Shown in pieces: positions 11,319-27,437 of a stretch of DNA of 64,000 nucleotides. The position numbers and the translations under genes are program-made. Positions within the stretch are counted from its first letter, which is position 1, and every line of letters starts with the position of its first letter. This DNA comes from Psychromonas ossibalaenae ATCC BAA-1528 (GTDB lineage Bacteria > Pseudomonadota > Gammaproteobacteria > Enterobacterales > Psychromonadaceae): contig NZ_KB906984.1 of NCBI RefSeq assembly GCF_000381745.1, positions 1-64,000 of the forward strand, given 5' to 3'. The notes beneath the pieces are model-generated. The model did no database searches. It was given only the letters and a program-made list of their open reading frames with translations, and had not been told where the DNA came from.

Positions 11319-11329
11319 ATTTTTTATTC

Positions 11330-12774: not shown

Positions 12775-15057
12775 ATGGATGACATGAGCAACATTGAAGA
12801 CGAAAAGATAATCAATTGGATTAAAAACCAAGAATTCTCGAACCTAGCTTTCCTAGATGACTGTTGGCGCTCTCATGATAATGAATGGTATCTAGGGTTT
12901 TATTATTTCATCCATTACCTAAAGCAAGAAAGCTTAGATGATGTTTTGGCTGAAGCCATTTCACGACACGGTGACGAATCATCTGCGTACTACTATCTAG
13001 GCAACACAGCAAAGAAAATTTTCAGTTATATTGATGAATATCGCATTGCCGCTAGTTTCTATAGACGTGCCATACAACTAAACCCAAACAATGGAGACGC
13101 GCACTGGGGTCTATTCGAGACAGCTGGCGACGCTGAATCATGCATTTTCTCATTAAAAAGTGATTACGATAATGGCAAGTTTGAATATCTAGGCAGAAAG
13201 ATTTACCACCTAACGAGCTACTATCGAAATGAGTTTTCGAAGCTTTCAAACAAAAACTTACTAACAATAAAGTCATTCATACAGGATGAACGAATCACAT
13301 GCAGGGATGAGACACTTGTTTATGTTCATTTTTATCTTGATGATGTCGAGGGCTGTTTGGCTTTGATGGAAACGTTAGATAACGTGACCATTGACATCTT
13401 AAAACCCTACTTTGAAAAAGGGTTAATCAGCAAAGAATTTGCCCTATCAAAGGTATATTACTCAAATGTTCATGAGCTTTTAGGTGATGACCATGTAAGC
13501 GTTTACCAAGCACACAAGGAGGAAGCTAAAAAAGGGAAGTCCAATCCCACACTTGCAGTGCTAATACAGAAAGCCTTTCGAGCAAATGAATACGCAGACA
13601 TAGTAACCTACTATGAGGAAGCGCCCGATGATAAAGCACTTTTCTGGCACGATGAGTCACCACGCTTATATTACTTATTAGCACTGTCGTACTTAAAACA
13701 AGCCCCAAACAGTCTAGTTTTAGAATTCGTTAACAACAGAGCTGATACGCTAAGAGACGAATCTAAGGTGTTATATCAAGCCGTTAAATGTAGACATAAT
13801 ATTGATAAACTCAATCAACGCCATTCGGAGCAAAAAGACTTTGATATAGCAATTGATTCTATGGCTCTTTATAAGAATGCTGTTGATGCCATTGAAACAT
13901 CCGAAGCAATGAGGCACTACTTGTACGAGTCGCTAACCAGTGAATTACAAGCACTCAAAACCAAGTGGAATAAAGCTCACCACCAACAGCAATTAAAAGA
14001 AATGAAAGCCAAGCTGTCTCAAGGTGACATGAATAACGATGACTTTCTTCGTCTATTTGGTTTAGGTATAAACTGCAATGAATTTGACTTTGTAATAGAT
14101 AACATTGATGAATTTCATAAGCACAGTACACCTACAATGGCATCGTATAACTGCATTGCTGTCTGTCATGATTTTAAAAAAGAATTCAGAGCCGCCTTTA
14201 AGTACTACAAGCTTGCCCTAGATTTAATGACGTCATCTAAAGACTATAACGATACCATCATCAGTAATTACGTCACCTGCGCCAAAAGGTTACCTGACGT
14301 AGAAATACCAAAAGATGAATTCGATAGATTACGTGACCGATATAACATAGAGCTAACCAATCGATTCAAATGGGGCATATTTACGGCTCGAAAAAGCAAG
14401 CTATTCAAATACTCCCCTTTAAACGTTAACACTATTGACGCACTTACAAATCAATACCTCTATCTTGCATCTAAGCAGCAGCTAAATGACCCTATAGAGC
14501 TACCTGCTCTTAGTAAGTTTGATTCTGATAACTTAGTCGACCCAATTAACTATAGAGTTTGTTCGCTATCTTACAATCAGAACTCTATGTTGATGTGGTC
14601 TCATTACGCACAAGAACATCAGGGCGTCATGGTTGAATACTGGTTTGGCGGGGAGTTTCCTAGCGGTGTTGGAGTGAACAGAATTGATTACGCAGACCAC
14701 TTCAAGAGAAATAAAGAAAAAGACTTGTATGTGTTTAACCAGTACCTCCTAACTAAAAACAAAGAATGGGAATATGAAGATGAAGTTAGAATATTTTCCT
14801 ACCAACGAGAAACCGTAGGGTTTTACAGTTATGACTACCCGAACAACGATAGAGAAAAAATCAACGCTCAAATTCGTAGTATCACACTAGGCTGCAAATT
14901 CCCAAGCAACAAAAGAAAGCTTATTGCCAACATAGTCAACACGCTTAATGCCAATAGAGAATCTCACGAACCAAAAGTTACTCTGCGTGAAGCTTTCATT
15001 CCAGAAGATAACTGCTTTGCATTAGAGTACAGGGACATCGATATTTCAAAAATCTAA
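12775..15057 (+). CDS. Large TPR protein with C-terminal DUF2971 domain
   Basis: 760 residues, no signal peptide. The first about 520 residues are helical with TPR-like repeats (SSAYYYLGNTAKKIF, ASFYRRAIQLNPNNGDAHWG, YNCIAVCHDFKKEFRAAFKY). Residues about 530-740 carry the DUF2971 pattern: an entry segment (KWGIFTARKSKLFKYSPL, QLNDPIE), MLMWSHYAQEHQGVMVEY, and K-EWEYEDEVRIF. The molecular function of DUF2971 is not established to my knowledge. It is the first gene inside the left boundary, is monocistronic and is followed by a terminator. This is a typical cargo position, and an anti-phage role is possible but unproven. It starts at ATG 12775, with an in-frame ATG four codons later. Confidence 0.8.
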   Translation: MDDMSNIEDEKIINWIKNQEFSNLAFLDDCWRSHDNEWYLGFYYFIHYLKQESLDDVLAEAISRHGDESSAYYYLGNTAKKIFSYIDEYRIAASFYRRAIQLNPNNGDAHWGLFETAGDAESCIFSLKSDYDNGKFEYLGRKIYHLTSYYRNEFSKLSNKNLLTIKSFIQDERITCRDETLVYVHFYLDDVEGCLALMETLDNVTIDILKPYFEKGLISKEFALSKVYYSNVHELLGDDHVSVYQAHKEEAKKGKSNPTLAVLIQKAFRANEYADIVTYYEEAPDDKALFWHDESPRLYYLLALSYLKQAPNSLVLEFVNNRADTLRDESKVLYQAVKCRHNIDKLNQRHSEQKDFDIAIDSMALYKNAVDAIETSEAMRHYLYESLTSELQALKTKWNKAHHQQQLKEMKAKLSQGDMNNDDFLRLFGLGINCNEFDFVIDNIDEFHKHSTPTMASYNCIAVCHDFKKEFRAAFKYYKLALDLMTSSKDYNDTIISNYVTCAKRLPDVEIPKDEFDRLRDRYNIELTNRFKWGIFTARKSKLFKYSPLNVNTIDALTNQYLYLASKQQLNDPIELPALSKFDSDNLVDPINYRVCSLSYNQNSMLMWSHYAQEHQGVMVEYWFGGEFPSGVGVNRIDYADHFKRNKEKDLYVFNQYLLTKNKEWEYEDEVRIFSYQRETVGFYSYDYPNNDREKINAQIRSITLGCKFPSNKRKLIANIVNTLNANRESHEPKVTLREAFIPEDNCFALEYRDIDISKI

Positions 15058-15061
15058 CAAA

Positions 15062-15085
15062 AAGCCGACCTCATTGGGTCGGCTT
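15062..15085. terminator. Bidirectional terminator between convergent transcripts
   Basis: Nine-base stem AAGCCGACC/GGTCGGCTT with T-rich flanks on both sides. It ends the TPR-DUF2971 gene (plus) and the eight-gene operon (minus), and overlaps the stop codon of the last minus-strand gene. Confidence 0.75.
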
Positions 15086-15253
15086 ACTCTTTTCACTATC
15101 ACACTGCTTTTCATCTTCAACCACATAACAAATCGGCTTTACTTTAAATTCAGTGTCATTGAAACTATTCACGATAATACTATTTGATATGTTGCCATTA
15201 GACGTATCAGGCACAGGATTGATAAGGCAACATACTAAAATTAAGACTTCCAT
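15071..15253 (-). CDS. Small protein with hydrophobic N-terminus (last gene of the eight-gene operon)
   Basis: 60 residues. Start ATG overlaps the end of the upstream gene and has a strong AAGGAG eight bases before it. The N-terminus (MEVLILVCCLINPVPD) is hydrophobic with paired cysteines and no positive charge, so it is not a standard lipoprotein signal. A small membrane peptide or an Rz1-like o-spanin are possibilities I cannot separate. The rest is polar and acidic. Its TGA lies inside the terminator stem. Confidence 0.5.
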   Translation of the reverse strand: MEVLILVCCLINPVPDTSNGNISNSIIVNSFNDTEFKVKPICYVVEDEKQCDSEKSKPTQ

Positions 15254-15420
15254 TTCTTCCGCTCCTTGCTTTGCTCTGCACTACCATATTTTTTGAGCAT
15301 GTCGTTAAAAGTGCCAATGAAAACAATTTCTTGGTCTTGCTCAACCTGTTCGCCGATATCAATTTGATATACGTCTTTTTCTAGTACTAACGGGATACTA
15401 GATTCTGGTTTTTCACCCAT
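15241..15420 (-). CDS. Unknown small protein (operon gene 7)
   Basis: 59 residues from ATG at 15420. The ATG overlaps the stop of the preceding gene (ATGGGTGA) and GGGGGT lies five bases upstream, so it is translationally coupled. A longer frame to 15489 would overlap the upstream gene by 77 bases and has no binding site. It is acidic in the N-terminal half (LEKDVYQIDIGEQVEQDQ) and ends in a Lys-rich tail. No family recognised. Confidence 0.6.
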   Translation of the reverse strand: MGEKPESSIPLVLEKDVYQIDIGEQVEQDQEIVFIGTFNDMLKKYGSAEQSKERKKWKS

Positions 15421-15907
15421 TACGACCCCCGTTAAAAGCTCGCCAGATTGATAGTAAGCGGTTTTGCTCATCAATCGGTGGCTCATCACTCTTATTCTGA
15501 GAGAACAAGGTCAGTAGCTCTCTACTGCTTGTATTACTCATTACATACGTTGTTATCAAGTCATCAAATTGCCAAACGCACTTGCTGTTATTCAAATCTG
15601 GGTGACTTTTGATTTCTAACACATCAGTGCTTTTTAAGTCGGCTTTTAGTTGTTCAAGCTCAAGTTTATGAGATTGCTTTTGCTGTTCGAGAATGGATTG
15701 AACAAGGATTTCTTGGGCTGAATTTAGCAACCACTCACCGCCCAGTTTTGTACTAGCTAACTGCTCAGAGTTTGCGCCAATCAGCTTCGCGATAAGCTCA
15801 GGCTTTTTGGTCAACGCATCATTCAAAGCTCGACGAGCTAACGCATTTTCGGTTCTAGCCTTTGCTGATAGTTTTTGTAACTCACGTGCCTTTTCTGAAT
15901 CAAGCAT
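15413..15907 (-). CDS. Unknown protein, mostly helical (operon gene 6)
   Basis: 164 residues from ATG at 15907, which shares its A with the stop of the upstream gene (TGATG) and has GGGGGAG just before. The N-terminal half is Lys/Ala/Glu-rich and predicted helical or coiled-coil (KARELQKLSAKARTENALAR, QKQSHKLELEQLKADLK). The C-terminal half is mixed (SSRELLTLFSQNK). No family recognised. It could be a structural adaptor or scaffold-like protein, but that is only a guess from composition. Confidence 0.6.
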   Translation of the reverse strand: MLDSEKARELQKLSAKARTENALARRALNDALTKKPELIAKLIGANSEQLASTKLGGEWLLNSAQEILVQSILEQQKQSHKLELEQLKADLKSTDVLEIKSHPDLNNSKCVWQFDDLITTYVMSNTSSRELLTLFSQNKSDEPPIDEQNRLLSIWRAFNGGRNG

Positions 15908-16191
15908 CACTCCCCCTTACGGCCTTTCTTGGCGTATTTGTAGCGAGATACTAGCGTTCTAGCGTGTTTCGTATACACACTCTGCTTTTCAACAATAAAC
16001 GTGTGACGCATGCCTAGAGCTTCATTCATATGTGGTTTAGCGTCATTTGATTCGATATCCGCTTTGATTGCTTCTTGCCATTCTTTCGGCAAAGTCTCGA
16101 CGAATTTCATATCAACATAACGACCTTTCGGTAGTTGGAATTTCTCAGGCAATACCCATGCATTGTTTGTCGTAGTATTTTTAATAATCAT
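15907..16191 (-). CDS. Unknown 94-residue protein (operon gene 5)
   Basis: Preferred start is the ATG at 16191, right after the upstream gene's stop; an ATG at 16218 would extend it nine residues into that gene. Basic C-terminus (RTLVSRYKYAKKGRKGE). It contains WVLPEKFQLPKGRYVDMKFVE and a Met/His-rich centre (HMNEALGMRH). No family recognised. Confidence 0.6.
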   Translation of the reverse strand: MIIKNTTTNNAWVLPEKFQLPKGRYVDMKFVETLPKEWQEAIKADIESNDAKPHMNEALGMRHTFIVEKQSVYTKHARTLVSRYKYAKKGRKGE

Positions 16192-16193
16192 TC

Positions 16194-17060
16194 TTATAAT
16201 CCGTTTTTGTTTAGCCATGAAAGAGATTCAGCAACGATATCTTTCGGCTTTAGCATGCTTTTGATTTCTTTTCTGACTGCATCAACACCTTTGGCTGGTG
16301 GCTGTGCTTGCTCATATGAATCTAGAATGTCGTTTAGCTCGACCTTAACTGCTTCAACCTCATCAAGATTGCCGTGACGTAGCTCTAGACCTAATTTACT
16401 CAAAAGTCCTTGAACCTCTGCCAATGCATCAACCTGTACACTTTCATTGATATCAGACTGACGTAAGAACTTGATAATATTCACCACTTCTCGGGCAGTA
16501 AGTGTCTTGTTTACGATTTCCCATTCTCCATCACCATCAACTTTGATTTCAAAATCAGATGAAATAAGATTTGCGATATCTGGTCTTAGTGTGAACTTAC
16601 CGTCGGCAGTAACTTGACCCACACTAAATGCAGTTTCATCGCCATCATTATCAACTAGCGATTTGTGACCAAACCACAGGCCAGTAAAACTATCTGTTTC
16701 TGATTCTTCGATATGGGCTGTGAACCCCGATTCATTGAGATATTCGACTGACTCGACGCCCTCGTTCAATGCGCTCATACTTTCGAAATCAAGCTTGTGC
16801 TCATTCATTGCCAGAACATCATCGACACTCGCGACGTATAGCGCGTTATTGATTTTTTCGATATGGAGACCAAAGCCTGACCGATATAAACTGGCGTATT
16901 TTGAGCCGATTTGCTTATCATCGATGAATGCGATTGAACCGCTATCCTCATCAAAACGTCCTATAGTTTTCAACATGTTACGCTGTAAGGCCGCTTCTTT
17001 ATTTTCAAACACAACATCAGTGTGTGACGGCGAAAAGTCACCAATTTTTAATACTTTCAT
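16194..17060 (-). CDS. Unknown 288-residue acidic protein (operon gene 4)
   Basis: The largest product of the minus-strand operon. Start ATG at 17060 follows AGGGAAC and the upstream stop directly. Strongly acidic, with many Asp/Glu clusters. The N-terminal half looks beta-rich (GSIAFIDDKQIGSKYASLYR). About 210-260 is helical (VDALAEVQGLLSKLGLELRH, KVELNDILDSYEQ). No catalytic motif or family recognised. Gene order among small overlapping genes resembles phage modules, but I cannot assign a structural role. Confidence 0.6.
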   Translation of the reverse strand: MKVLKIGDFSPSHTDVVFENKEAALQRNMLKTIGRFDEDSGSIAFIDDKQIGSKYASLYRSGFGLHIEKINNALYVASVDDVLAMNEHKLDFESMSALNEGVESVEYLNESGFTAHIEESETDSFTGLWFGHKSLVDNDGDETAFSVGQVTADGKFTLRPDIANLISSDFEIKVDGDGEWEIVNKTLTAREVVNIIKFLRQSDINESVQVDALAEVQGLLSKLGLELRHGNLDEVEAVKVELNDILDSYEQAQPPAKGVDAVRKEIKSMLKPKDIVAESLSWLNKNGL

Positions 17061-17387
17061 TTAAAAGTTCCCTCTTTCGTATTCGTTCATTTGCTTGGCT
17101 TGCTGCTCTGCTAACTCATCAAAATGTGAGATAACGACCTCACGCGCCAATGTAGTAGTGACTTTGTTCGATAGCCCCGTTAGGTTGGTTAGTGTCACTA
17201 GCTTGTCGTTCACTAGAGAATTAATGAAATCAGGCGAGTCGCCCTTACCGTTCTTTGATTTGGTTACCCGATAGTCGATACATGCTTGAACAAACGTTTT
17301 ACAAGCTTTTTCAAGCTCGGGTGGCATAATAAAATCATCAACACTCTTTCTTGCTTCTTCGTTTTGCTCTGCGAAATGGTTCAGCAT
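17061..17387 (-). CDS. Unknown 108-residue protein (operon gene 3)
   Basis: ATG at 17387 with AGAGGGTG six bases upstream. Predicted helical. Features ELEKACKTFVQACIDYRV and an internal TLTNLTGLSNKVTTTLAREV stretch. It ends immediately before the next start. No family recognised. Confidence 0.6.
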   Translation of the reverse strand: MLNHFAEQNEEARKSVDDFIMPPELEKACKTFVQACIDYRVTKSKNGKGDSPDFINSLVNDKLVTLTNLTGLSNKVTTTLAREVVISHFDELAEQQAKQMNEYERGNF

Positions 17388-17390
17388 GTA

Positions 17391-17666
17391 TCACCCTCTT
17401 AATTGATTAAATAACTCATTAGCACCCGCTGTAGGCTTCGATGTAGTTTCAACTTCTTCACGAAACTGCTTGGCAGCACTATAAAAATCTCTAGCGCTCA
17501 CCTTTAAGTGAAGCCCGTCGCCTTTCGACCAGATAAGGGTGTTATTACCGATTTCAATGAAAAAATGGTCGTCTTTAGCAATGAAATGCAAACCTTGTTC
17601 CTCATTAAAATGCAGTGTTGTTTTCCAAAGCTTTGCCACTTTCTGTAGCTCTCGTAATGCAGCCAT
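17391..17666 (-). CDS. Unknown 91-residue protein (operon gene 2)
   Basis: ATG at 17666 shares its A with the upstream gene's TAA; GAGGCT lies upstream. An alternating beta pattern in the middle (KTTLHFNEEQGLHFIAKDDH, FIEIGNNTLIWSKGDGLHLK) suggests a small beta-sandwich with a helical C-terminus. No family recognised. Confidence 0.6.
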   Translation of the reverse strand: MAALRELQKVAKLWKTTLHFNEEQGLHFIAKDDHFFIEIGNNTLIWSKGDGLHLKVSARDFYSAAKQFREEVETTSKPTAGANELFNQLRG

Positions 17667-17992
17667 TATCTAGCCTCCATCCAATCAATGAACGGTTGCT
17701 TATGCTCATCAACATTTGAGATTGTTACGAATCCCGCGTGTTTATGCTCTTGTTTGTACTGCTTCCACAACATCGCGATATGGTCAGGCTCAAGCTTCTT
17801 ATCAAGATTGGTTAATACATCTCGTAGCAATACCGCCTCTAGCTTGATACGACTATCTGCGAGTTCGTTAAGTAATGTGCCAAACGTCTTGCTTGCCTTT
17901 GCTTTGCGACTACGCTCCGCCGCATTTTGGATAATCTTCTTGTGGTGCTTTTCATAATATTCTCGGTTTAACTGCTTCTTTGACTTTGTCAT
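17666..17992 (-). CDS. Unknown basic 108-residue protein (operon gene 1)
   Basis: First gene of the operon, ATG at 17992 with AGGAAG upstream. The N-terminus is highly basic and helical (KSKKQLNREYYEKHHKKIIQ, AAERSRKAKASK), compatible with nucleic-acid binding. The C-terminal half is mixed (LEPDHIAMLWKQYKQEHKHA). No family recognised. It may be a regulator of the operon, by position only. Confidence 0.6.
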   Translation of the reverse strand: MTKSKKQLNREYYEKHHKKIIQNAAERSRKAKASKTFGTLLNELADSRIKLEAVLLRDVLTNLDKKLEPDHIAMLWKQYKQEHKHAGFVTISNVDEHKQPFIDWMEAR

Positions 17993-18356
17993 TTTTCTTC
18001 CTCAACACCGACGGGAATCAGACCGTCGATATAAATTTAATTTTAAAAAGCGGTTTTTCTATAAGAACTGGATTACCGCGAACCAGTGAGAGCGATGTCA
18101 ATCAACTCTGATACTTCTATTTAGTGGTCTGAATATTCAGTGTTTCGGGCGAAAGGATGAATTGACTGGCAAATGTGTTTTTATGGTTGGCGGGGTTTTG
18201 GATATGAAAAAAGGGCAGTCTCGAATAATCGAAAATGCCCCGAAAGGCGACCTAAAGCGGGGACGCCCAAACTGATAATGAAGATTTCACAAATGATGTA
18301 AAACTAGAGGTGAGCACGATGGTTTTGACGAAAGACCATCAAAGCTACATAACTAT
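17993..18356. other. Intergenic: operon promoter region and short hairpins
   Basis: Contains the candidate promoter at 18072-18101, a leader hairpin CGACGG/CCGTCG at about 18009-18027, a stem CCCCG/CGGGG near 18237-18265, and an inverted repeat GATGGT/ACCATC near 18318-18340 just past the end of the small recombinase gene, possibly its terminator. No gene seen. Confidence 0.4.
18072..18101 (-). promoter_or_regulatory. Candidate promoter of the eight-gene operon
   Basis: On the minus strand: -35 TTGACA (18101-18096), 18-bp spacer, -10 GGTAAT (18077-18072). A short palindrome ACTGG/CCAGT overlaps the -10 and could be an operator. Inferred from sequence only. Confidence 0.4.
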
Positions 18357-18968
18357 TTATGCGCCTGATTTTAGCTCTCGACTAACTTGTTGAACTAGGT
18401 AAGGACTACAGCCCACAGTGTCTTGGATAAATGTATAAGTTTGCCCTAGTTTTAGTAGCTCCCTGACTTTTTCGCGCTTTGCTTCATCTTTCTTTCGACC
18501 TTTATACTTACCACTCGCTTTAGCCCTCTCAATACCTTGCTTCTGACGCTTAGCCCTAGTCTCGTAGTCATCGCGCGCCATACCTGCGGCCAAGTCCAAC
18601 ATGAACGCGGTAAGCGCCTTTGTTATAAAGCTATCTTGAACATCATTTGAAAACGCTTTATGTGTAATTTGATTATCTATAACAACAATCTGAATGCCAC
18701 GTTCTTCAAGTTGTCTTTGTAGTGTTTTCCAACTCTCGTATGGCAAGCGCGTCAATCTATCTAGTTTTTCAACTAATAGAATGTCGCCTTTTTCGCTATC
18801 TTCTATGAGTCTTGATAACTCAGGGCGCTCAAGTTTTGTCCCGCTAATATTCTCAACATAGTAACCTGCAACCTTTTCGCTAAAGCTATTAACAAACTCT
18901 CGAATTTCTTGCTTTGCACGTAACGCATCTTGCTTATCGGTTGACGCTCTTAGGTATGCTCTAATCAT
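18357..18968 (-). CDS. Small serine recombinase (resolvase/invertase family)
   Basis: 203 residues from ATG at 18968 (a GTG at 18980 would add four residues but lies within an operator repeat). The catalytic domain has RASTDKQ (nucleophile Ser9 from this start), the DRLTR motif (VEKLDRLTRLPYESW) and the long E-helix region (FMLDLAAGMARDDYETRAKR). A C-terminal helix-turn-helix (YTFIQDTVGCSPYLVQQVSR) follows. It is the size of resolvases and DNA invertases and distinct from the large integrase at 25801. It may resolve multimers, invert a segment or regulate. Two direct repeats upstream are candidate self-binding sites. Confidence 0.88.
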   Translation of the reverse strand: MIRAYLRASTDKQDALRAKQEIREFVNSFSEKVAGYYVENISGTKLERPELSRLIEDSEKGDILLVEKLDRLTRLPYESWKTLQRQLEERGIQIVVIDNQITHKAFSNDVQDSFITKALTAFMLDLAAGMARDDYETRAKRQKQGIERAKASGKYKGRKKDEAKREKVRELLKLGQTYTFIQDTVGCSPYLVQQVSRELKSGA

Positions 18969-18978
18969 TGTCTCACTC

Positions 18979-19027
18979 ACTATGTTTTAAGTACTATGAA
19001 TAATATACTATGTTTTAAGTGCCTCAA
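18979..19027 (-). promoter_or_regulatory. Promoter of the small recombinase with two direct-repeat operators
   Basis: Minus-strand -35 TTGAGG (19027-19022), 16-bp spacer, -10 TATTAT (19005-19000). Two perfect 14-bp copies of ACTATGTTTTAAGT lie at 18979-18992 and 19007-19020, 28 bp apart. One is in the spacer and one just downstream of the -10, a classic autorepression layout. They could also be recombination sites. Confidence 0.6.
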
Positions 19028-19230
19028 AATCAATTGTCATAGTGACGCCATAGCAAGAAACCCACTACGACTGGCCTACACTCAAATCATAGCGAAATGA
19101 GAAACGCATAAACAATCGAGAAAAACATCATCTCCACATGCACCAAGTGCGCCCAACCTCACAAATACAAACTTAGACTCAAGCAAGACACAGTCCGTCA
19201 GGCATAATTCCACTTTTAATGAGGAATAAC

Positions 19231-19695
19231 ATGAACAACCCAAAGGTAAGAGAGCACGAAGAACTTGCTAAAGAGTTTTACTCGAAAATCACCAACAAAG
19301 ACGCGAAAAACGACATTTTCGAGTGGATAACCGACGAGCAATTCGAGCTTATAAAGAAAAGCTTTAGTGCTGAGACAAGAAAGAGAAACCAGAAGCGTTA
19401 CTATCGATTTGAGTGCCCCCTCCAAAACCAAATAATCTGGTGCATTGAGAGCAAGCTAGGTACTCACTTAAAATGCCAGCAATTTAAAAGGTACTTAAAG
19501 ACATTAGGAAAAGGCAACAAATCAGCCAATAGAAACAAAGAAAGCTCAATATACATCTACCCACACCCAGCTGAAAAACCTTACTTAAACTCTGACGAGC
19601 TTGAATCTCACTTCACTCAAGACCCCAATGGCATGCTAGCTCAACCTCACGCTATCGAGAAAAGACCGCACAAACTGGCAAAACTACAAGCTTAG
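19231..19695 (+). CDS. Unknown basic protein, 154 residues
   Basis: Start ATG at 19231 chosen for GAGGA five bases upstream; a frame from 19219 lacks one. Rich in Lys/Asn with WITDEQFELIKKSFSAETRK, QNQIIWCIESKLGTHLKCQQ and KRYLKTLGKGNKS. Predicted mixed alpha/beta and possibly nucleic-acid binding by charge. No family recognised. It precedes the 287-residue gene on the same strand by 47 bases, so the two probably share a transcript. Confidence 0.6.
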   Translation: MNNPKVREHEELAKEFYSKITNKDAKNDIFEWITDEQFELIKKSFSAETRKRNQKRYYRFECPLQNQIIWCIESKLGTHLKCQQFKRYLKTLGKGNKSANRNKESSIYIYPHPAEKPYLNSDELESHFTQDPNGMLAQPHAIEKRPHKLAKLQA

Positions 19696-19742
19696 ACGAC
19701 ACCACAAAGAAGCTATCACTTAGCAATACAGAGTTAAAAGCT

Positions 19743-20606
19743 ATGGCAAGAATTAAAAAAAAATCCGTTGATGAATTTTATTCCGACGTAGATTCCAGTC
19801 TCCTGAAATCTTTTAGAAGACTTCAAATGTCAATCGGTGAAATGTGCGACATGGGCTACAATGCCTCACTTCTCGATAAGCTCGGATTAACAAAAAAGAA
19901 CAGAACTATCGCTTCCGGCCTCTTTTGTGCAGGTCGATACAGTGAGGATAGAAATAATATTTTCATATCTGAGAATGTATTAACACTCTTGGAAAAATCT
20001 AGCTTTGACAATATTCCCAACTCAAAAGTTAGACTCCCATTCAAGACATTTAAGATTCGCTTCCCTAAATCCTCAGGGTTGGGAGCTTGTATTTTTACAG
20101 TATCTCGCTCCAGCTATATTAGGTTTCTAGGGGGGGAGACATCTGATATTGACGAATCAAAGGAGCACGAAGCAATCTTTGTCACGACAACCGACGCCAC
20201 CCAAAATGGAAAGCACACCTTTGTCACAAAGAAGCACACCATTGATAAGCTACTTACGCCAACAACTGAGCAAGGTGACACCAATAATACGCCAACTAGA
20301 ACGCACGACCTTGCCGTAAAATTTTGTATTCTATATTCAACTGGTGCAATCAGCATGGAGGACGGCCACCCACTCCCTACAAAGTACGATAAACCCAAGC
20401 AAGGCGGCAAAAGCTTTAGGTTCGGCTTTAATGATACAGAGTTTAACAATGAGGCATTTGTGCGCCCTCACTTTCGAAATTTACGCGATGAAAGGTATTA
20501 CAAAAAAGAGCCGTATAATAACTGGGAGCGTGGCAGTCGATGGACTTTTGTGACTGGCAAAACCATTAACGCCAAAAGCTATACTGCCACCAATGCTATG
20601 ACTTAA
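19743..20606 (+). CDS. Unknown 287-residue protein with a conserved-looking C-terminal R-x-H / W motif
   Basis: Basic N-terminus (MARIKKKSVDEFY). The middle is beta-rich (RLPFKTFKIRFPKSSGLGA). The C-terminal region has FVRPHFRNLRDERYY followed by RGSRWTFVTGKTINAKSYTA. The order of Arg/His pair, aromatic Tyr pair and W-x-F-V-x-G resembles a small domain seen at the C-terminus of many phage-related proteins. I have no function for it. It contains a G7 run at about 20129-20136 but the frame is intact. A terminator follows. Confidence 0.6.
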   Translation: MARIKKKSVDEFYSDVDSSLLKSFRRLQMSIGEMCDMGYNASLLDKLGLTKKNRTIASGLFCAGRYSEDRNNIFISENVLTLLEKSSFDNIPNSKVRLPFKTFKIRFPKSSGLGACIFTVSRSSYIRFLGGETSDIDESKEHEAIFVTTTDATQNGKHTFVTKKHTIDKLLTPTTEQGDTNNTPTRTHDLAVKFCILYSTGAISMEDGHPLPTKYDKPKQGGKSFRFGFNDTEFNNEAFVRPHFRNLRDERYYKKEPYNNWERGSRWTFVTGKTINAKSYTATNAMT

Positions 20607-20620
20607 AGCTCTTAAAAAAT

Positions 20621-20646
20621 GCATCGCCTCCGTGCGATGCCTTTTC
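20621..20646 (+). terminator. Terminator of the 287-residue gene
   Basis: Stem GCATCGC/GCGATGC, 6-base loop, followed by CTTTTCT. Confidence 0.7.
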
Positions 20647-20782
20647 TGGCTTACCTAGCCCTTTTGTCAATTTCTCGTAACAGCCAGGGTAGTTACGCCC
20701 CTAGTACTAGCATTTGTTCATTCGAACACTTTTATTTATGCGTAGGCCGCTGTCTAACGACGTTTAGGCTTGATTTGATACG

Positions 20783-20814
20783 TTGGTTAGAATTGGCTAG
20801 AACACTGGTTAGAA
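20783..20814. repeat. Iteron-like repeats TTGGTTAGAA
   Basis: Three near-identical decamers: TTGGTTAGAA, TTGGCTAGAA and CTGGTTAGAA, spaced 10 and 12 bases. The core CTGGTTAG also occurs (inverted) in the 12-bp tandem repeat at the element's left end. Confidence 0.5.
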
Positions 20815-20952
20815 TTGATTTGACTTGCGCTCTACGCGGCTAGTATGTTCGACCACGTTAAAATTCACATGAAGATTGACGGCTTTGCCGTTCGCGAGGA
20901 ACGAGCCTATAAACGTATTCTAACGTGTTGGTTTAAAAAACTTTCGGCATAC

Positions 20953-21033
20953 TACGTTTTCAAACTTAAAGTCCTTACTATAAGAAACTTTATATTTGAA
21001 TTCTGAAATACCACAAACCAGTACGTTGGTATG
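20953..21033. repeat. 81-bp direct repeat, copy 1
   Basis: Identical over 81 bases to 21239-21319. It begins TACGTTTTCAAACTTAAAG and ends CCAGTACGTTGGTATG. Non-coding. A repeat with no mismatch in otherwise unique sequence implies recent duplication or functional constraint. Confidence 0.9.
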
Positions 21034-21238
21034 AGGTTTTATCGCATCGACACGCGACGGCGTCGCTTAGTCTTGCTCTGTCGGCTGCACCGACGCAGTG
21101 TTTAATCTCATTGAATGGAGTTTGAAATATAAATTGTTTGGACGAATCGAGCAAAGCGAGATTTGGACATTCACGCCACTGCGTGACTAGTTACGTTCAA
21201 CGTGATTAATCAGTAAAACTCCATCAGATTACGTTTAA

Positions 21239-21319
21239 TACGTTTTCAAACTTAAAGTCCTTACTATAAGAAACTTTATATTTGAATTCTGAAATACCAC
21301 AAACCAGTACGTTGGTATG
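21239..21319. repeat. 81-bp direct repeat, copy 2
   Basis: Exact copy of 20953-21033, 286 bp downstream in the same orientation. Weaker similarity continues further along each unit (CGCAGTGTTTA at 21094 and 21391), so this is a diverged duplication of roughly 0.3 kb with a conserved core. Confidence 0.9.
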
Positions 21320-21654
21320 TGATTAGTCGGTTCACTCAGTCATTCGGCCTGAGGCCTCATTCCATCGCTACCCTCTGCCTCGTCCCTCGGCGCAGTGTTT
21401 ATTTAAATCAATATGAAGTTTTAACGTAGGTGAGCAACGCGAACTAATAATTCGGATACCGATACATGTTTATGGAGGGTGCAATTTCTCGAAAAACGCT
21501 TAAAACCCACGGCCTATAAGGGATTCAAGCTTTTTGTCCATTTTGAAACGTCCCTTTTTTTGTCCTTTTTCTTGATAATTCGTCCCTAATCACTTCTGAT
21601 TCTTGTCACTTTTCTCGATACTAAATATGTTAGAAAAACATAAAAGCCAGTTTG

Positions 21655-21683
21655 TTTACCACTAACTGGCCATGCATTATAAT
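21655..21683 (+). promoter_or_regulatory. Promoter of the coiled-coil gene
   Basis: -35 TTTACC (21655-21660), 17-bp spacer, consensus -10 TATAAT (21678-21683). Overlapped by an inverted repeat GCCAGTT/AACTGGC (about 21646-21670) that could be an operator. Predicted transcription start is near 21690. Confidence 0.6.
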
Positions 21684-21693
21684 AAACATATCG

Positions 21694-21776
21694 AGAGACT
21701 TTAGAGGAATTTTCATTCCAAATCCGTTGTCGAATATTCGTATAGCCTGCAAGCTGAATATTCCTCTAAAGTCTCT
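21694..21776 (+). ncRNA. Structured 5' leader: 17-bp inverted repeat
   Basis: AGAGACTTTAGAGGAAT (21694-21710) and its exact complement (21760-21776) enclose a 49-base loop containing two GAATATTC palindromes. The stem starts a few bases after the predicted transcription start, so the mRNA should begin with a stable 83-base hairpin, 41 bases before the next ATG. It could be an attenuator, RNA-stability element, riboregulator or protein-binding site. Confidence 0.5.
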
Positions 21777-21817
21777 TGTCAGAAATTGCAGTTTCTGAGT
21801 AATTAAACGGACTTAAA

Positions 21818-22561
21818 ATGAAAAAAGATTTAAAAGAAGCAAAGGTATTCATGTTTTTGAACCTTGCGGAAAACCATTACGCACCACTAAACAAATCAAA
21901 CGCTGCCGCAGTCACTATCGAAACTGATACTAAATTCAACATATACTTGAACCATGCGACTAAGTCAGTGAATGACCGAGGACAAGCAATCCCATTCAAT
22001 AAGTATTTGGTATCACAAGGCATAACACGTGATAGTCATAACGGCTTTTATAAGCAGATTTCACGAAAACTACCAACCATTCAAAATTGTTATTACGGTC
22101 ATGCTGAATTTGATACACACCATATATTTGTTATTGTTGAAGTTTGTCCATCTGGTAAATATGCGCCTGAGTTATTTGTTGTACAGTTATTCAAAAATAA
22201 CAGAACCAAAATATACACACCGAAACGCGCAGTCTCATTTAACATCAAAAACCTATTTTCCAGTAAGCTAATTCCTGCCACTACATATGATAAGAAGAGC
22301 CGTGACGATAGAATCATTGAGGCGACCGAAAATAAAACCAAAGATATTATGAACGAGAAACTAATGCCTGAAAGAGTCAAGCATCTAGAAACTGAAATTG
22401 AAAATGGTGAATTGAAAATGACTATTAAAAACTTACAAGCTGAATTAAGAATGCGCGACGAAAAAGAATGCGCGACAATCAAAGACCTAAAAAACACTGT
22501 TAATGTATTTGAATCAGAAATCGAAGCATTGAAAGCTCAAATTGAAAAGCTGAAAGGCTAA
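21818..22561 (+). CDS. Unknown protein with C-terminal coiled coil
   Basis: 247 residues. The N-terminal about 150 residues form an unrecognised mixed domain (FNKYLVSQGITRDSHNGFYK, IFVIVEVCPSGKYAPELFVV). Residues about 185-247 are a coiled coil with clear heptads (RVKHLETEIENGELKMTIKN, EIEALKAQIEKLKG). This layout resembles phage-encoded DNA-binding or regulatory proteins ending in a dimerisation coil, but no family is claimed. It sits behind a strong promoter and structured leader and is followed by a strong terminator. Start ATG 21818; the upstream purine signal is weak (ACGGACTTAAA). Confidence 0.6.
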   Translation: MKKDLKEAKVFMFLNLAENHYAPLNKSNAAAVTIETDTKFNIYLNHATKSVNDRGQAIPFNKYLVSQGITRDSHNGFYKQISRKLPTIQNCYYGHAEFDTHHIFVIVEVCPSGKYAPELFVVQLFKNNRTKIYTPKRAVSFNIKNLFSSKLIPATTYDKKSRDDRIIEATENKTKDIMNEKLMPERVKHLETEIENGELKMTIKNLQAELRMRDEKECATIKDLKNTVNVFESEIEALKAQIEKLKG

Positions 22562-22563
22562 TG

Positions 22564-22592
22564 AAAAACCGCTATTTACTAGCGGTTTTTTT
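22564..22592 (+). terminator. Intrinsic terminator
   Basis: AAAAACCGCTA / TAGCGGTTTTTTT, five-base loop, perfect stem with a long T-run. Confidence 0.9.
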
Positions 22593-22723
22593 GTATCTAG
22601 CCACCAGCCAAACGCATTCTAAGCGGTCTAATCGCACCCCCATACCAACACATCAAAGTAAGCCTCAAGACGCTCTGCCGAACAGCCTGTTTTGCATAAA
22701 TACATGCAAAACAGGAGTTACAA

Positions 22724-23863
22724 ATGATTAAACAACTTTTAGCTGAATCCAACACATCGGCCAACATTGAAAACGGTCGCCCCGCTCTAGTTGGATTGAC
22801 TCGAAAAATCAACGACAAGATTTTTACTGATATCTGTTCAGTTCAACCAACATCACAACCACGCGCTACCGTCTACGGCGTTCGTTATGAGATGGTTTCA
22901 AAAGACGGTGAAAGTCGCGAGATTCAAGCAGGCCATAGAACTGGTACAGGTAAGTACCCATTTAAAGACCACGGTTTGCCAGTCGGCTCAGACAGCATGA
23001 CAGTAGGTTCGCACTTTTCAGAATATGATTATGTGTTTGGTGTCGTAGTAGATGGTGATTACTTAGGGCTTACCGAATCAGAACTACTAGAAAAGGTTTT
23101 GCTTGGCGACTTACGTCTAGTGACTGACGCGGATGATGACGATACAAGCGACGTTCAAAGCTCACGATTTATAATGGATAGATGGCAATCTCATATCAAA
23201 TCACGTCGCGTCAAATCGCCTACTACGTGGGAATTACTTCATGATATGCAAAGTAACGGTCTAGATGGTTCTAGCGCGGTTGAGGACTTGCTTGCCACAT
23301 CGATTTCAGACGAGGTAAACAGCGATATCATCATGAAAACGATAACCGTTGCTAAAAAAGGCACACCTATCGATTTGAGCAATGGCGAGCTATATCAACA
23401 AGGCCGCTCATTAATTGCACGTGCATTAGAGCTAGGTGCTGATATCCAACGCAATACCACATTTCCGGCTAGTTTCGTTCTAGCGTCGCCTAAAGTTGCA
23501 TCTGCGATTCGAGCAAGTGGTCAAGTCGGCAATAACGATATGATTGATGGTACGAACCTAAAGCTTGTAACTGATGGTAAGGCTATCGGTGAGTACATGC
23601 TAGTAGGTTCTAAACTTGATTTTGATGGTTTAGATACAGTCGCGCCAATCCATTATTCACCATATGTTGAGACTGACAACGCAGGCACATATCTGATTGC
23701 TACCGACAGTGAGAACCTACAACCTGTACCCGCTCTAATTTCTCGCTACGCTATTACGTGTTCGCCCGATTTCAGTGACGTTAACGGTGTACAAGATGGT
23801 GAGGACTGGGAAACTTTGGCAAACAAAAGTCCACTAGCGACGCTAGTCCTTGTAAACCTATAA
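22724..23863 (+). CDS. T4 gp23-like major capsid protein homologue
   Basis: 379 residues. The core matches the gp23 family in order. ALVGLTRKINDKIFTDICSV then QPTSQPRATVYGVRY corresponds to T4's LVGMVRRAIPNLIAFDICGV then QP-x(2,3)-P. WELLHDMQSNGLDGSSAVED with ISDEVNSDII corresponds to T4's ELAQDLKAVHGLDADAEL with EIMLEIN. FVLASPKVASAIRASG is the conserved strand-helix, and HYSPYV...ENLQPVPALISRYAI corresponds to YYAPYV...KNFQPVMGFKTRYGI. It is much shorter than T4 gp23 (521) and has no obvious long propeptide. Strong ribosome binding site (AGGAG) and its own terminator. No other capsid, protease or packaging gene was seen in the element. It may build or poison capsids of a helper phage. Confidence 0.82.
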   Translation: MIKQLLAESNTSANIENGRPALVGLTRKINDKIFTDICSVQPTSQPRATVYGVRYEMVSKDGESREIQAGHRTGTGKYPFKDHGLPVGSDSMTVGSHFSEYDYVFGVVVDGDYLGLTESELLEKVLLGDLRLVTDADDDDTSDVQSSRFIMDRWQSHIKSRRVKSPTTWELLHDMQSNGLDGSSAVEDLLATSISDEVNSDIIMKTITVAKKGTPIDLSNGELYQQGRSLIARALELGADIQRNTTFPASFVLASPKVASAIRASGQVGNNDMIDGTNLKLVTDGKAIGEYMLVGSKLDFDGLDTVAPIHYSPYVETDNAGTYLIATDSENLQPVPALISRYAITCSPDFSDVNGVQDGEDWETLANKSPLATLVLVNL

Positions 23864-23867
23864 AAAA

Positions 23868-23893
23868 GGCGAACTGTTAAAGTTCGCCCCTCT
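23868..23893 (+). terminator. Terminator of the capsid gene
   Basis: Stem GGCGAAC/GTTCGCC with a 7-base loop followed by CCTCTT. A-rich on the left side, so it may also serve the convergent lipoprotein operon. Confidence 0.7.
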
Positions 23894-23910
23894 TGGTATT
23901 TGATTTAGTC

Positions 23911-24852
23911 TTAAAGCTTCATTAGCCCGACTGCATACCTAGTTTCTGTGCATGTATCGTATTTTAGAGCATGAGATGACATTGCTACTGCCGTTATCTT
24001 GACAATCCCATCTTCAATACCTTGATTTACGTACTTGTCTTCATAAGGTTGCTTGAACTCTTTTCTATAATCAGCCTCTAGCGACTTGCGAACCTTTGGT
24101 ATGTCACGTCGATTGATATAGCCCTCTTTAGAACAGAACTGAACCATTCCAAGAAACTCGCCATTCCTTTTCATTTTCGTAATATGAGCGTTTTGTTTGC
24201 GTTCTTTCTCTTGTTTTGCGATTAGAGCGGCGCGCTCTTTCTGCTCCTCAGCAATTCGAGCGTCTTCCTTTGCCTTGAATTTTGCATATTCAATACGTTT
24301 TCGCTCCGATATTGGAGTTGCTATCGGCAACCACTTATCCTTAATGAATTGTTGTACTGCATCACGGTTATAATGACACTTTGTTAAAGGCTTCGTAGTT
24401 GGAGTTAATGACTCAGCTAATGCAAGGCTTATAGATATTTTATGAAAATTGGGGTCAAAAACTGTAGGTGGTATGGCTATTTTATAATTAACCTGCGTCT
24501 CTCCATTTAAAGTTCCAAAAGAACCGACAGTACAAGTGCTACCTAAAGTTTCCAAGCTGACCTGCCCCATTAAAGTATCAGTATTTACATCTGAGCCCGA
24601 CACGTAGCGTGTATCATAGCGAAGACCACTAGTAAAGTTCTGAGGTTGTATGTACTTAGTCTCGGAGAGGAAGGCGCTAATACTATCAATATGAGTCATG
24701 CTTTCAGCATCGCGATGCTCAACAGTGCGGTATATGTTGCGATTATCAAGGTCAATAATATCGCTCGGTGGCCCCATATTTTCGGGCATCAAACCCATTG
24801 ATTGACAGCCAGAAAGAAGAGTAACAAACGCAAATGGAACTAAATTTTTCAC
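23911..24852 (-). CDS. Lipoprotein of unknown function
   Basis: 313 residues with a lipoprotein signal (MKNLVPFAFVTLLSGC; lipobox LSGC, Cys16). The middle is beta-rich (RYDTRYVSGSDVNTDTLMGQ). Residues about 195-225 are a charged helix (KFKAEDARIAEEQKERAAL-type, Lys/Glu/Arg-rich). The C-terminal domain contains cysteines. Start three bases after the stop of the upstream exported protein, so they form an operon. No family recognised. Envelope cargo such as a phage-entry blocker is possible by context only. Confidence 0.65.
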   Translation of the reverse strand: MKNLVPFAFVTLLSGCQSMGLMPENMGPPSDIIDLDNRNIYRTVEHRDAESMTHIDSISAFLSETKYIQPQNFTSGLRYDTRYVSGSDVNTDTLMGQVSLETLGSTCTVGSFGTLNGETQVNYKIAIPPTVFDPNFHKISISLALAESLTPTTKPLTKCHYNRDAVQQFIKDKWLPIATPISERKRIEYAKFKAKEDARIAEEQKERAALIAKQEKERKQNAHITKMKRNGEFLGMVQFCSKEGYINRRDIPKVRKSLEADYRKEFKQPYEDKYVNQGIEDGIVKITAVAMSSHALKYDTCTETRYAVGLMKL

Positions 24853-24855
24853 TGT

Positions 24856-25389
24856 TTACACCCCTTGCTTCGCAATCCATGACCTAAAATCACTACCAAC
24901 GCACGATAAGAACTCTTTGCTAGCGTCCTGACTAATAGCGTCATATTTAAAATCTTGTTCGAATACACTTGAGCGTAATGTAATAGAACCAGAATCCATT
25001 AACGCAGTTAAAGCCTTGACTGCAAAGTAACCGTTATTAGGGAACTCGACTGAATAAAAATGAGTCCCACCATCTGGTTCATATTGAGCATTCATATCAG
25101 TGAACATATCCTTTTCACCTCTATGGGAGACAGACCATAACTCCATATTGGTAAACACTTGGTCTGACTCAACTCCCATCTCAACACCTATAGTCATTTC
25201 TTTCATCTCATCAAACCACATCACATGCATGACAGATGACCATTCATCAGCCGAATGCGGGTATTCAATACTTATACTACAAACTTTCCCGTAGAAATCG
25301 TCAACTTCCTCATTGACAACAACTCGCTCAGCAAAGGCAAGGCTAGAACTAATTACAAGACCCGCAGTTAGTAACAACTTAATTTTCAT
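24856..25389 (-). CDS. Exported protein of unknown function
   Basis: 177 residues with a clear Sec signal peptide (MKIKLLLTAGLVISSSLAFA, cleavage after AFA at about 20). The mature part is acidic and beta-rich with two cysteines that could form a disulfide. The ATG follows GAGGAAGACGA. First gene of a two-gene operon divergent from the XRE regulator across a palindromic operator, so probably under its control. No family recognised. Confidence 0.65.
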   Translation of the reverse strand: MKIKLLLTAGLVISSSLAFAERVVVNEEVDDFYGKVCSISIEYPHSADEWSSVMHVMWFDEMKEMTIGVEMGVESDQVFTNMELWSVSHRGEKDMFTDMNAQYEPDGGTHFYSVEFPNNGYFAVKALTALMDSGSITLRSSVFEQDFKYDAISQDASKEFLSCVGSDFRSWIAKQGV

Positions 25390-25412
25390 TCGTCTTCCTC
25401 AAAAATAACAAA

Positions 25413-25447
25413 GTTTCGGAAATCCGAAACATTCAAGCCAATATAAT
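25413..25447. promoter_or_regulatory. Divergent promoter with palindromic operator for the XRE regulator
   Basis: Perfect palindrome GTTTCGGA-AA-TCCGAAAC at 25413-25430. On the plus strand a consensus -10 TATAAT lies at 25442-25447. On the minus strand a TTGAAT -35 (25437-25432) puts the palindrome in the spacer. A repressor bound here would block both the exported-protein operon and the regulator's own gene. Confidence 0.65.
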
Positions 25448-25490
25448 GCTTAGCCTATTGCTCAACAAATCGAATAGTAATAATCGTGAT

Positions 25491-25754
25491 ATGAGCAAGA
25501 ATTTAGTAGGAACTCGCATCAAAGAGTTAAGAAAGGCGCAAGGGTTAACACAAGTAAATCTTGCCACTCAATTCCAATTGAGGGGCTGGGATATGAGTCA
25601 TCAGACTATCGCAAAAATAGAAACAGGCGTTAAACCTGTGAGAGACATCGAGATTGTTCAGCTATCTTTAATCTTAGACGTGCCAGTCGCAGAGATATTT
25701 CAAATATCTGACCTGCAACCTCGCCTACAGAGGTACATAGCCAATAAGCAGTAA
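25491..25754 (+). CDS. XRE-family helix-turn-helix regulator
   Basis: 87 residues from ATG at 25491. An upstream ATG at 25446 overlaps the -10 box and would lie before the transcription start, so it is rejected. Residues about 6-65 are a Cro/C1-type HTH (GTRIKELRKAQGLTQVNLAT, MSHQTIAKIETGVKPVRDIE). Little else is present, so it is a small DNA-binding protein and a likely autorepressor at the adjacent palindrome. A leaderless or weakly initiated mRNA is suggested by the lack of a Shine-Dalgarno. Confidence 0.85.
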   Translation: MSKNLVGTRIKELRKAQGLTQVNLATQFQLRGWDMSHQTIAKIETGVKPVRDIEIVQLSLILDVPVAEIFQISDLQPRLQRYIANKQ

Positions 25755-25800
25755 AAAGGATGATATCGCCCTTGCCGTTTGTTGGTTTTAACAACAAGCA

Positions 25801-27372
25801 CTACATCAATTTGACCATACCGTTGTTTAACATTTCATTTCGAACAATCAATGAAACAGCATCTTTCTTCTTCCTACAAATCTCTATTTCAAAAGTAGTA
25901 TTATCTTTCAATTCAACCGTCACCGTAACTGTGTTTTTATAGTCTGCATGACCATTAAAAAACACCTCTATTCTGCTCACTAGCTTTGAAATGTACGTTC
26001 GAGCTAATGCAATTGATTCTTGGCATTTCTTATCAAAGATATCGGCTTCTAGCTCAATGAGTTTCATATAAACATCGTCGTCGATATCTTCCGCGCTTTT
26101 CTCAAGCTCTAACTTGCTCAAGCCCCTTTTTAAGCTATTGATTTCATTATTCAACTTACCAACACGCTCACTTACCATTGCAGCCAGACTTGGGTCGTTT
26201 TCCATCATATCGAAATAAGTTTGTATTGAACTCTCTTTAGCCTTGATATCAACCAACACACTATTGATTCTATTGTCTACATCAGAGTCGGTTTTATTCA
26301 TATGTGGTTTAAAATCGAACGCTAATACAGAGAAAGCCTTTTCCTCTATGAAATGTAATAGTGCTGACGCTTTGCGCCCCTCTTTACTTGCTCCCCTGCT
26401 ACATACAGGACATTTCAATACATACCTGCCGAATCTATCTCTGTTCTTTACAACTGCGCCATGACAATCACCACAACGAGTAATCCCACCTAACGCGGTT
26501 ATCAATGTTTGACCGAACTTTTGACCACCTCTGCCGAACTTCTCGCGCTGTGATAAAGCAAGTTTCAATTTTGTATACTTTTCATCCGACATCATTTTAG
26601 GGAACATATTCACGATAGTTTCGCCGTTGATATGAAAATCACCGTGTAAGCTCTTATGATGCAACAACGTCGATACGTGAGAACCTAACCACTCTGACGA
26701 CTTTCTAGTAGAACCTTTGTAGCCTTCTTCCTGTAAGACTTTAGCTATGTACCCATACCCATGACCATCTAAGTACAAATCAACCGCTCTATTAACGGCC
26801 TGTTTGTAATAATCATGATAGAAATAGTCTTTCTTTACACTATCCCAATAGTAATAATGTGGAATTTGGTTAAACGGTGTTTTCTCACCTGCCTTAGCGC
26901 GTCTAATCTTCTCACGATATGCGCCTTTGATTTTATGTGATTTCGCGTCTGACTCTTGTTGAGCTAGTGCAAGTTTGACAGTCGTTAGTAAGGAGCTAAC
27001 CAACTCTTTACCCTGAACACCGTCTTTTGTATGTACAGTCACACCACCTTGGCGCATTTGAATTAATGCAAGTGTACCCGCGTCGTTATCTCTAGAAAGT
27101 CTGTCCATATCTTCGACAATGAAAACGTCGCCGTCGTGCTTACCTTTCGCTACATCATCTAGAAACTTTCGTAATTTGCCATGCGTTATGTTGGTTTTCT
27201 TTTTTGACGAACTCGCGTGGGCACTCATACCCGTATCATCGATGATTATCGGATTATCGCAGCCAAGCGACTTAGCACATTCATTAATGAATTTAAGTTG
27301 TCGTTGAACGCCCGTTTTCTCGCTCTTTTTCTGTTCCTCAGTGGAAACCCTGATATAACCGTATGTATTCAT
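25801..27372 (-). CDS. Large serine recombinase (integrase of the element)
   Basis: 523 residues. N-terminal catalytic domain with the nucleophile Ser10 (YGYIRVSTEEQ), VEDMDRLSRD and the long helix containing the LALAQQESDAKSHKIKGA region. A recombinase domain follows (PFNQIPHYYYW, VNRAVDLYLDGHGYGYIAKV), then a zinc ribbon (CGDC ... CPVC) and a coiled-coil plus C-terminal tail. The ATG lies 44 bases from the attR crossover, reading inward, which is the usual position for an integrase. It should catalyse attP x attB recombination. Excision would need a directionality factor, not identified here. Confidence 0.95.
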   Translation of the reverse strand: MNTYGYIRVSTEEQKKSEKTGVQRQLKFINECAKSLGCDNPIIIDDTGMSAHASSSKKKTNITHGKLRKFLDDVAKGKHDGDVFIVEDMDRLSRDNDAGTLALIQMRQGGVTVHTKDGVQGKELVSSLLTTVKLALAQQESDAKSHKIKGAYREKIRRAKAGEKTPFNQIPHYYYWDSVKKDYFYHDYYKQAVNRAVDLYLDGHGYGYIAKVLQEEGYKGSTRKSSEWLGSHVSTLLHHKSLHGDFHINGETIVNMFPKMMSDEKYTKLKLALSQREKFGRGGQKFGQTLITALGGITRCGDCHGAVVKNRDRFGRYVLKCPVCSRGASKEGRKASALLHFIEEKAFSVLAFDFKPHMNKTDSDVDNRINSVLVDIKAKESSIQTYFDMMENDPSLAAMVSERVGKLNNEINSLKRGLSKLELEKSAEDIDDDVYMKLIELEADIFDKKCQESIALARTYISKLVSRIEVFFNGHADYKNTVTVTVELKDNTTFEIEICRKKKDAVSLIVRNEMLNNGMVKLM

Positions 27373-27395
27373 AGAACCTCACAAATCAATTAGGC

Positions 27396-27437
27396 ATATC
27401 TTACCATACACTTGCGATCAGGCGGTGATGATGCCTG
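27396..27437. other. attR, right boundary of the integrated element
   Basis: Element sequence (CTTACCATACACTTGC) meets carboxypeptidase codons (TCAGGCGGTGATGATG) at GA 27416-27417. Joined to the left end it gives ACTTGC-GA-GCAAGT, a perfect 6-bp dyad around the dinucleotide. Symmetry continues outward (CATAT...TTA on both arms; 14 of 21 positions per arm). Confidence 0.8.

Follow-up and report, generated by a model that had tools for sequence, protein, structure and literature searches.

In the 64-kb window (the whole stretch of 64,000 nucleotides that was analysed), an integrative element of 14,836 bp lies at positions 12582..27417, inside an M32 carboxypeptidase gene. The 5' piece of this gene is found at 12502-12581 and its 3' piece, which begins at position 26 of the Pfam M32 profile, at 27416-28822; the dinucleotide GA is common to both ends of the element (12580-12581 on the left and 27416-27417 on the right). 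When 23 further genomes of the genus were searched, 15 had a match to the 3' piece, and the junction was inspected in seven of these 15 relatives: four (L033-L036) read straight through it as ...WDQAVMMPAGGN, and three were minus-strand matches that left the junction out of view. The limits of the element were set at 12582-27417 because the gene pieces flank both ends and relatives read through the junction. As the carboxypeptidase gene is split by the element, the insertion probably inactivates it.

At the left end of the element, the + strand gene 12775..15057 encodes a 760-aa TPR protein with a DUF2971-like C-terminus, which matches the candidate defence family PDC-S31 and is probably cargo. 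An operon of small genes (15413..17992) and a small serine resolvase gene (18357..18980; best PDB match Tn552 bin3, chain 2r0q, E 1.4e-9) follow on the - strand, and a large serine recombinase (integrase) gene lies towards the right end (25801..27372, - strand). Between them, on the + strand, are the genes of a 287-aa protein of a rare family (19743..20606), a 247-aa protein whose family was not recognised (21818..22561) and a homolog of the T4-type capsid vertex protein gp24 (22724..23863). The space between the first two is a non-coding region (NCR) of 1,211 bp, 20607..21817. Seventeen proteins of the element were scanned against Pfam and 10 of these also against PHROGs, at E 0.1, and no terminase, portal or tail family was found among them; a late sigma family was weakly matched by 15907-16218 (E 0.077). 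The public collections used in our searches may lack the source genome itself.

The gp24-like gene is the only clear phage structural gene of the element. Its product is 46.3% identical over 99% of its length to the head vertex protein of Aeromonas phage AS-zj, and it matched T4 gp24 in the PDB (E 1.7e-43), the Pfam family Gp23 (218.5 bits) and PHROG 138. The gene is preceded by a hairpin (22686..22715, + strand) that contains CATAAATA, the latter ending 21 bp upstream of the start; the fold of 22680-22723 gave a z score of -6.86. A T4-type late promoter at CATAAATA, judged by the consensus, was kept only as a lead, since GCATAAATA occurs six times in the window, three of them outside the element.

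Three loci carry distant relatives of the 287-aa gene: L013 belongs to a further element of the source genome, L014 to a member of the genus and L015 to a member of the order; the gene was matched in 3 of 394 genomes and its alignment in 1 of 369. The family is also present on plasmids (nine records with the L013 relative as query), on other elements and on one viral contig (IMG/VR contig L025, the single relative from all viral-contig scans). One of these plasmids, from Shewanella, has a separately annotated replication initiation protein. Because the relatives sit on plasmids and a viral contig, one of them with an initiator of its own, we do not call the 287-aa gene a Rep, a candidate role that these contexts weaken. 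The L013 (9955-12006) and L014 (9537-11408) elements are of another type, in which the 287-aa relative lies near an ArdC-like gene (named by eye) and is accompanied by a non-coding gap of roughly 1 kb without long repeats.

The 247-aa gene was found in its own genome only (1 of 394 genomes), and its protein had no match in phages. The weak PHROG matches of its coiled coil, to a transposase family (1.1e-4) and a major head family (0.0025), are taken as coiled-coil matches. AlphaFold models of the two proteins that flank the NCR were too poor for use (mean pLDDT 42.0 and 41.7); in that of the 247-aa protein the C-terminal helix alone, coiled-coil-like, was modelled with confidence. No Rep family in Pfam or PHROG was matched by either flanking gene.

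Repeats and folds of the gene-free stretch

The NCR is the largest gap between ORFs of at least 80 aa in the window, the runner-up measuring 918 bp. Seven of its eight ORFs have codon-usage scores of -0.13 to 0.03, whereas the 15 scored genes of the element range from 0.07 to 0.24; the eighth, 20824-21006, scores 0.133 and falls within the gene range. Hidden genes were nevertheless rejected, as seven NCR ORFs, 20824-21006 among them, had no PHROG match at E 0.1. The 1.2 kb described as lacking a gene in the preliminary description is therefore upheld. At the DNA level, the NCR was matched in two of 60 relatives, the second with matches of just 30 and 39 bp, and had no match in phages and plasmids.

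Two copies of an 81-bp direct repeat, each with an internal dyad, lie at 20953..21033 and 21239..21319. They are identical at 81 of 81 positions, as had been reported, and 97% identical when lengthened to 89 bp; the 286 bp previously given as the distance between them is measured from start to start, with 205 bp in between. For a background, the longest exact direct repeat was recorded in each of 105 segments of 1,211 bp taken over the 64 kb at a step of 600. The 81-bp pair was the longest, and no unrelated segment exceeded 14 bp; an entry of 33 bp (segment from 21001) was taken as the same pair clipped by the segment edge because its position shows so.

Other repeats noted earlier were also recovered. 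The occurrences of CGCAGTGTTTA at 21094 and 21391 each end a copy of a diverged 29-nt repeat (21076..21104 and 21373..21401; 72% identity), and the repeat placed near 20783 is TGGTTAGAATTG, present at 20784 and 20806 (20784..20817). Outside the 81 bp, the alignment score of the repeat surroundings was reached by 34 of 500 shuffles, which is not significant, and a diverged tandem duplication of a 286-bp unit was rejected. A terminator-like stem-loop (20621..20640, + strand) follows the 287-aa gene. Further downstream, a stretch that is T-rich by composition (21531..21570, + strand) holds two TTTTTGTCC units and may be an unwinding region.

Folding of the DNA was compared with that of dinucleotide shuffles (n=200 for the dyad and the leader) and is given as z scores. 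The dyad of the 81-bp repeat reached -2.74 on the + strand (3 of 200 shuffles as good) and -1.94 on the - strand (7 of 200). Among the stretches with GC stems, three folded like their shuffles (-0.81, -0.20 and -0.59) and one, 21160-21216, folded better (-2.29). The strongest fold in the region was that of the leader, 21690-21812, with z -5.91 and 0 of 200 shuffles as good. It consists of an inverted repeat at 21694..21776 (22-nt arms, 95% complementary, with a 39-nt loop), ending 41 bp upstream of the start codon of the next gene, and a second, small hairpin at 21779..21798, seen as a self-inverse match (90% of 20) and in the fold. A promoter-like site, TTTACC-17-TATAAT (21655..21683, + strand; a consensus match only), lies directly 5' of the leader hairpin. 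When RNA windows of 120 nt were folded, the bulk of the NCR stayed at z about 0 to -2, with lows at 21180-21299 (+ strand, -3.52), 20940-21059 (- strand, -3.30) and 21600-21779 (-3.4 to -5.4). The label "hairpin-rich", and with it the folding of the repeat units that had been proposed as a check, is thus borne out for the 81-bp dyad, most clearly on the + strand, and for the leader inverted repeat, and is not for three of the four GC stems. A core common to the arms of the inverted repeat and the direct repeats was rejected as well: no sharing beyond chance was seen (259 and 519 of 2000 shuffles), the former being the best of six comparisons.

Signals of the kind found in replication origins were then sought in the NCR. 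The motif ACGTT/AACGT occurs 14 times in it, against none in 1,388 bp of upstream genes and two in 2,046 bp downstream. The most enriched 6-mer was AACGTA/TACGTT, with seven occurrences against 1.04 expected; over all 6-mers, 24 of 300 shuffles were as extreme. Once one of the two repeat copies (the second) had been removed and every word of a given length was taken into account, an iteron array was not significant, 55, 24, 44 and 50 of 300 shuffles being as extreme for words of 5, 6, 7 and 8. The iterons invoked in the preliminary description accordingly fell away, no array of short direct repeats standing above chance after correction. The DnaA-box pattern had no match within the element. 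No Rfam family was found at gathering level anywhere in the window; two matches had E <1, but their scores of 20.5 and 17.1 bits lie below the respective cut-offs (89 and 208), and they cover the leader only.

A probable sister element with a similar gap

A relative of a 288-aa operon gene led us to an element in another species of the genus (L049; G002:C24:26000-45900, about 7918-17635). The 288-aa protein and its L049 relative are 35% identical over 182 aa (E 2e-21 in a small comparison). The proteins of both elements were compared as single sequences by hhalign, with reversed decoys, giving probabilities of 98.4% for the 288-aa gene, 96.9% for the resolvases and 94.7% for the large recombinases. 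Two further operon genes scored 47.1 and 26.1%, with their order kept; a third pair, at 6.4%, could not be told apart from the highest-scoring reversed decoy (5.5%). Between the elements, resolvases and recombinases share 25-30% identity, and both come from large families; the L049 resolvase gene stands at the opposite end of the operon compared with the element in the window. The large recombinase of the window as query matched 3 of 24 genomes of the genus, and the genome of L049 (G002) was not among them. For these reasons the argument for relatedness draws chiefly on the 288-aa gene and on gene order, which make L049 a probable sister element.

The 288-aa gene was matched in two of 148 genomes. 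Its alignment matched five of 187 at E up to 0.01, of which three weak tails (columns 196-287, E 0.0056-0.0078) were dropped; neither the window protein nor the L049 protein had a match in phages and plasmids. A 227-aa gene of L049 was found in 1 of 99 genomes. A TIR effector of the CAP12/Pycsar type is the cargo of L049, which also has a ParB-like gene.

At the place that matches the NCR, L049 has a 712-bp gap between + strand genes. It contains direct repeats of 59 nt (85%) and 31 nt (97%), a tandem repeat of 21 nt (100%) and a dyad, all found with lower size limits than those used for the NCR. An inverted repeat (21-nt arms, 46-nt loop) ends 36 bp upstream of the next start codon. The inverted repeats of the two gaps are similar in build, with arms of 21-22 nt, one mismatch each and loops of 39 nt (window) and 46 nt (L049). 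In six control intergenic regions, of which two measure only 328 and 364 bp and those of L013 and L014 are related to each other, the inverted repeat was 10-13 nt and the exact direct repeat at most 12 bp, against 22 nt and 81 bp in the NCR and 21 nt and 26 bp in the L049 gap.

When the two leader stems were superposed at zero offset, 19 positions were paired in both; the pair is identical at eight of them, and at 11 both bases differ. The sequences of the two gaps were not significantly alike (30 of 200 shuffles reached the score in the forward and 12 of 200 in the reverse direction). The 81-mer and the dyad of L049 have a short match in common, ACTTAAAG..TTACTATA, which was rejected, its score being reached by 22 of 500 shuffles. 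The genes directly beside the two gaps have no detectable homology between the elements, and a coiled-coil tail that is alike in L049 was judged by eye. Because the sequence similarity is not significant, we claim shared architecture alone: the layout is common to the two gaps and the sequence is not.

A putative origin in a satellite-like setting

Two testable traits of phage satellites were found in the element: it is integrative, with its own recombinase and recognisable junctions, and its complement of phage genes for structure and packaging is incomplete, gp24 being its sole strong phage match. A gp24 homolog without a terminase, portal or tail family points to a satellite, and the candidate defence gene fits that setting too. 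A T4-type prophage remnant should hold several T4-type genes together; with just one in the element (17 proteins in Pfam, 10 in PHROGs), that reading finds no support. The defining traits of PLE and PICMI that we looked for were absent, the comparison with PLE being one of traits.

The closest parallel for the NCR is PLE, the satellite of Vibrio cholerae phage ICP1. Like PLE, the element carries a large serine integrase. Both are also integrative and phage-related with repeats in a non-coding region, which in PLE is the origin: its repeats are semi-palindromic, three iterons of ~30 bp, bound by the RepA_N initiator of the satellite (PMC8263062). Unlike PLE, the element has two 81-bp repeats and no recognised initiator; RepA_N and ~30-bp iterons are absent here, and no RepA-like Pfam match was found among the element proteins at E 0.1. 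PLE is not known to carry a gp24-type gene. PICMI, the Vibrionaceae satellites of virulent phages, resemble the element in being small and integrative and in carrying a defence gene (a candidate in the element); a typical PICMI is integrated beside fis and lacks a gene for capsid remodelling (PMC10803314), whereas the element carries a capsid vertex gene and sits in an M32 carboxypeptidase gene. Iteron-type plasmid origins likewise have direct repeats, dyads and a T-rich stretch upstream of a gene, and differ in that the element has no DnaA-box match, significant iteron array or known Rep. A limited literature search found no description of a satellite of this type with gp24 or with such a non-coding region.

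We put it at somewhat less than an even chance that a satellite-like integrative element has its cis-acting core in the NCR, made up of a replication origin, a promoter and a leader. An origin/control region is the likeliest reading because of the satellite-like setting and the repeat-rich gap at the matching place in L049. A gene-free stretch rich in repeats and in T that, at matching places of two integrative elements, precedes a leader hairpin and then a gene would most simply be such a region, and the best reading is that it may work like the origin region of PLE. The origin proposed in the preliminary description thus keeps its satellite-like setting and gains the L049 gap, and it loses the iteron array, with neither a DnaA box nor a recognised Rep to replace it. 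The setting, seen in gene content and junctions, is better supported than the origin itself.

In such a scheme the large serine recombinase, whose gene and junctions are observed, would excise the element as a circle. An initiator from the element or its helper would bind the dyads of the two 81-bp repeats, and the nearby T-rich stretch would melt. The promoter-like site just 5' of the 22-nt inverted repeat would drive transcription of the coiled-coil gene through the hairpin leader, and the gp24-like gene would be expressed next, from behind its own hairpin leader. Upon infection by a T4-type phage, the vertex protein of the element might join helper head assembly and divert or mis-size the capsid, a role suggested by its homology. 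Activation of the protease in T4 has been linked to the binding of gp24 to the prohead (PMC9958956), and a satellite-made gp24 could therefore disturb or redirect the maturation of the helper head. The element may depend on a helper, of which the gp24 homology is only a hint. L049 has no gp24-like gene, nor has its genome a gp24 match, and a T4-type helper is therefore no trait of the family.

The NCR could also be purely regulatory, with operators and a hairpin leader serving the coiled-coil and gp24-like genes while replication starts elsewhere or never. The promoter-like site and strong leader hairpin immediately 5' of the gene are what this would predict, and of all features the inverted repeat of the leader has its closest counterpart in L049; yet a span of 0.7-1.2 kb, with repeats 500-860 bp upstream of the start codon, seems long for simple control, and we think this explanation rather unlikely, if worth keeping in mind. 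The NCR might instead be neutral, decayed DNA in which 81 bp were duplicated recently; this would fit the lack of significant alignment between the flanks of the copies, their exact identity, which could mean youth, and the gene-like codon usage of the ORF 20824-21006. As L049 has the same kind of region at the matching place and no remnant of a known phage gene was found (seven NCR ORFs, PHROG), decay appears improbable.

The second proposal of the preliminary description was a set of structured RNAs, which might be a pair of related small RNAs. The leader hairpin and the + strand dyad do fold better than shuffles (z -5.91 and -2.74); against this, the GC stems are mostly shuffle-like, and the set of RNAs finds no Rfam support, as no family reached gathering level and the two sub-cut-off matches cover the leader alone, so that we regard it as quite improbable. 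Lastly, it is very improbable that the 81-bp repeats are res/six-like recombination sites for the small serine resolvase: its best PDB match is a Sin-group protein, and Sin-group sites, about 86-90 bp long, are near the repeat in size (81-89 bp), but with two copies in direct orientation the resolvase could remove the intervening DNA, the two dyads of the repeat show no common half-site on reading, and the repeat has no similarity to the stretch upstream of the resolvase gene.

A vertex protein on a 15-kb element would, if satellite-borne, represent a new route of capsid hijacking. Known satellites remodel helper capsids through scaffold or major capsid proteins. It is a speculative and somewhat doubtful extension that T4-type phages have a new satellite family, of which the element is a member, and that the element replicates from its dyad-repeat origin and redirects the helper head by its own gp24, unlike scaffold- or major-capsid-based hijacking. 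Two elements whose gaps are laid out alike, yet share no significant sequence there, offer a defined target in the search for the origin and initiator of the family.

In comparison with T4-type phages (Straboviridae), the element shares gene 24, its vertex protein being 46% identical to those of Aeromonas phages over 99% of its length, and differs in having no other recognised T4-type gene. In seven phage regions, gene 24 follows the major capsid gene in five and a hypothetical gene in one, and has no annotated upstream gene within the stretch in one. Judging by the searches made, few bacterial genomes seem to carry the gp24 gene. The protein was matched in 1 of 295 genomes of the order, that of the window, and none of 39 pattern-matching stretches was confirmed when genome contigs were searched with the single protein. 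A search with the gp24 alignment and one pattern gave 96 stretches, one of them confirmed. This one, on a contig of Aliivibrio sp. S4MY1 (L023, 1336-10010), has a gp24-like gene amid further phage-like ORFs, read by eye, and is possibly a T4-type prophage or phage fragment.
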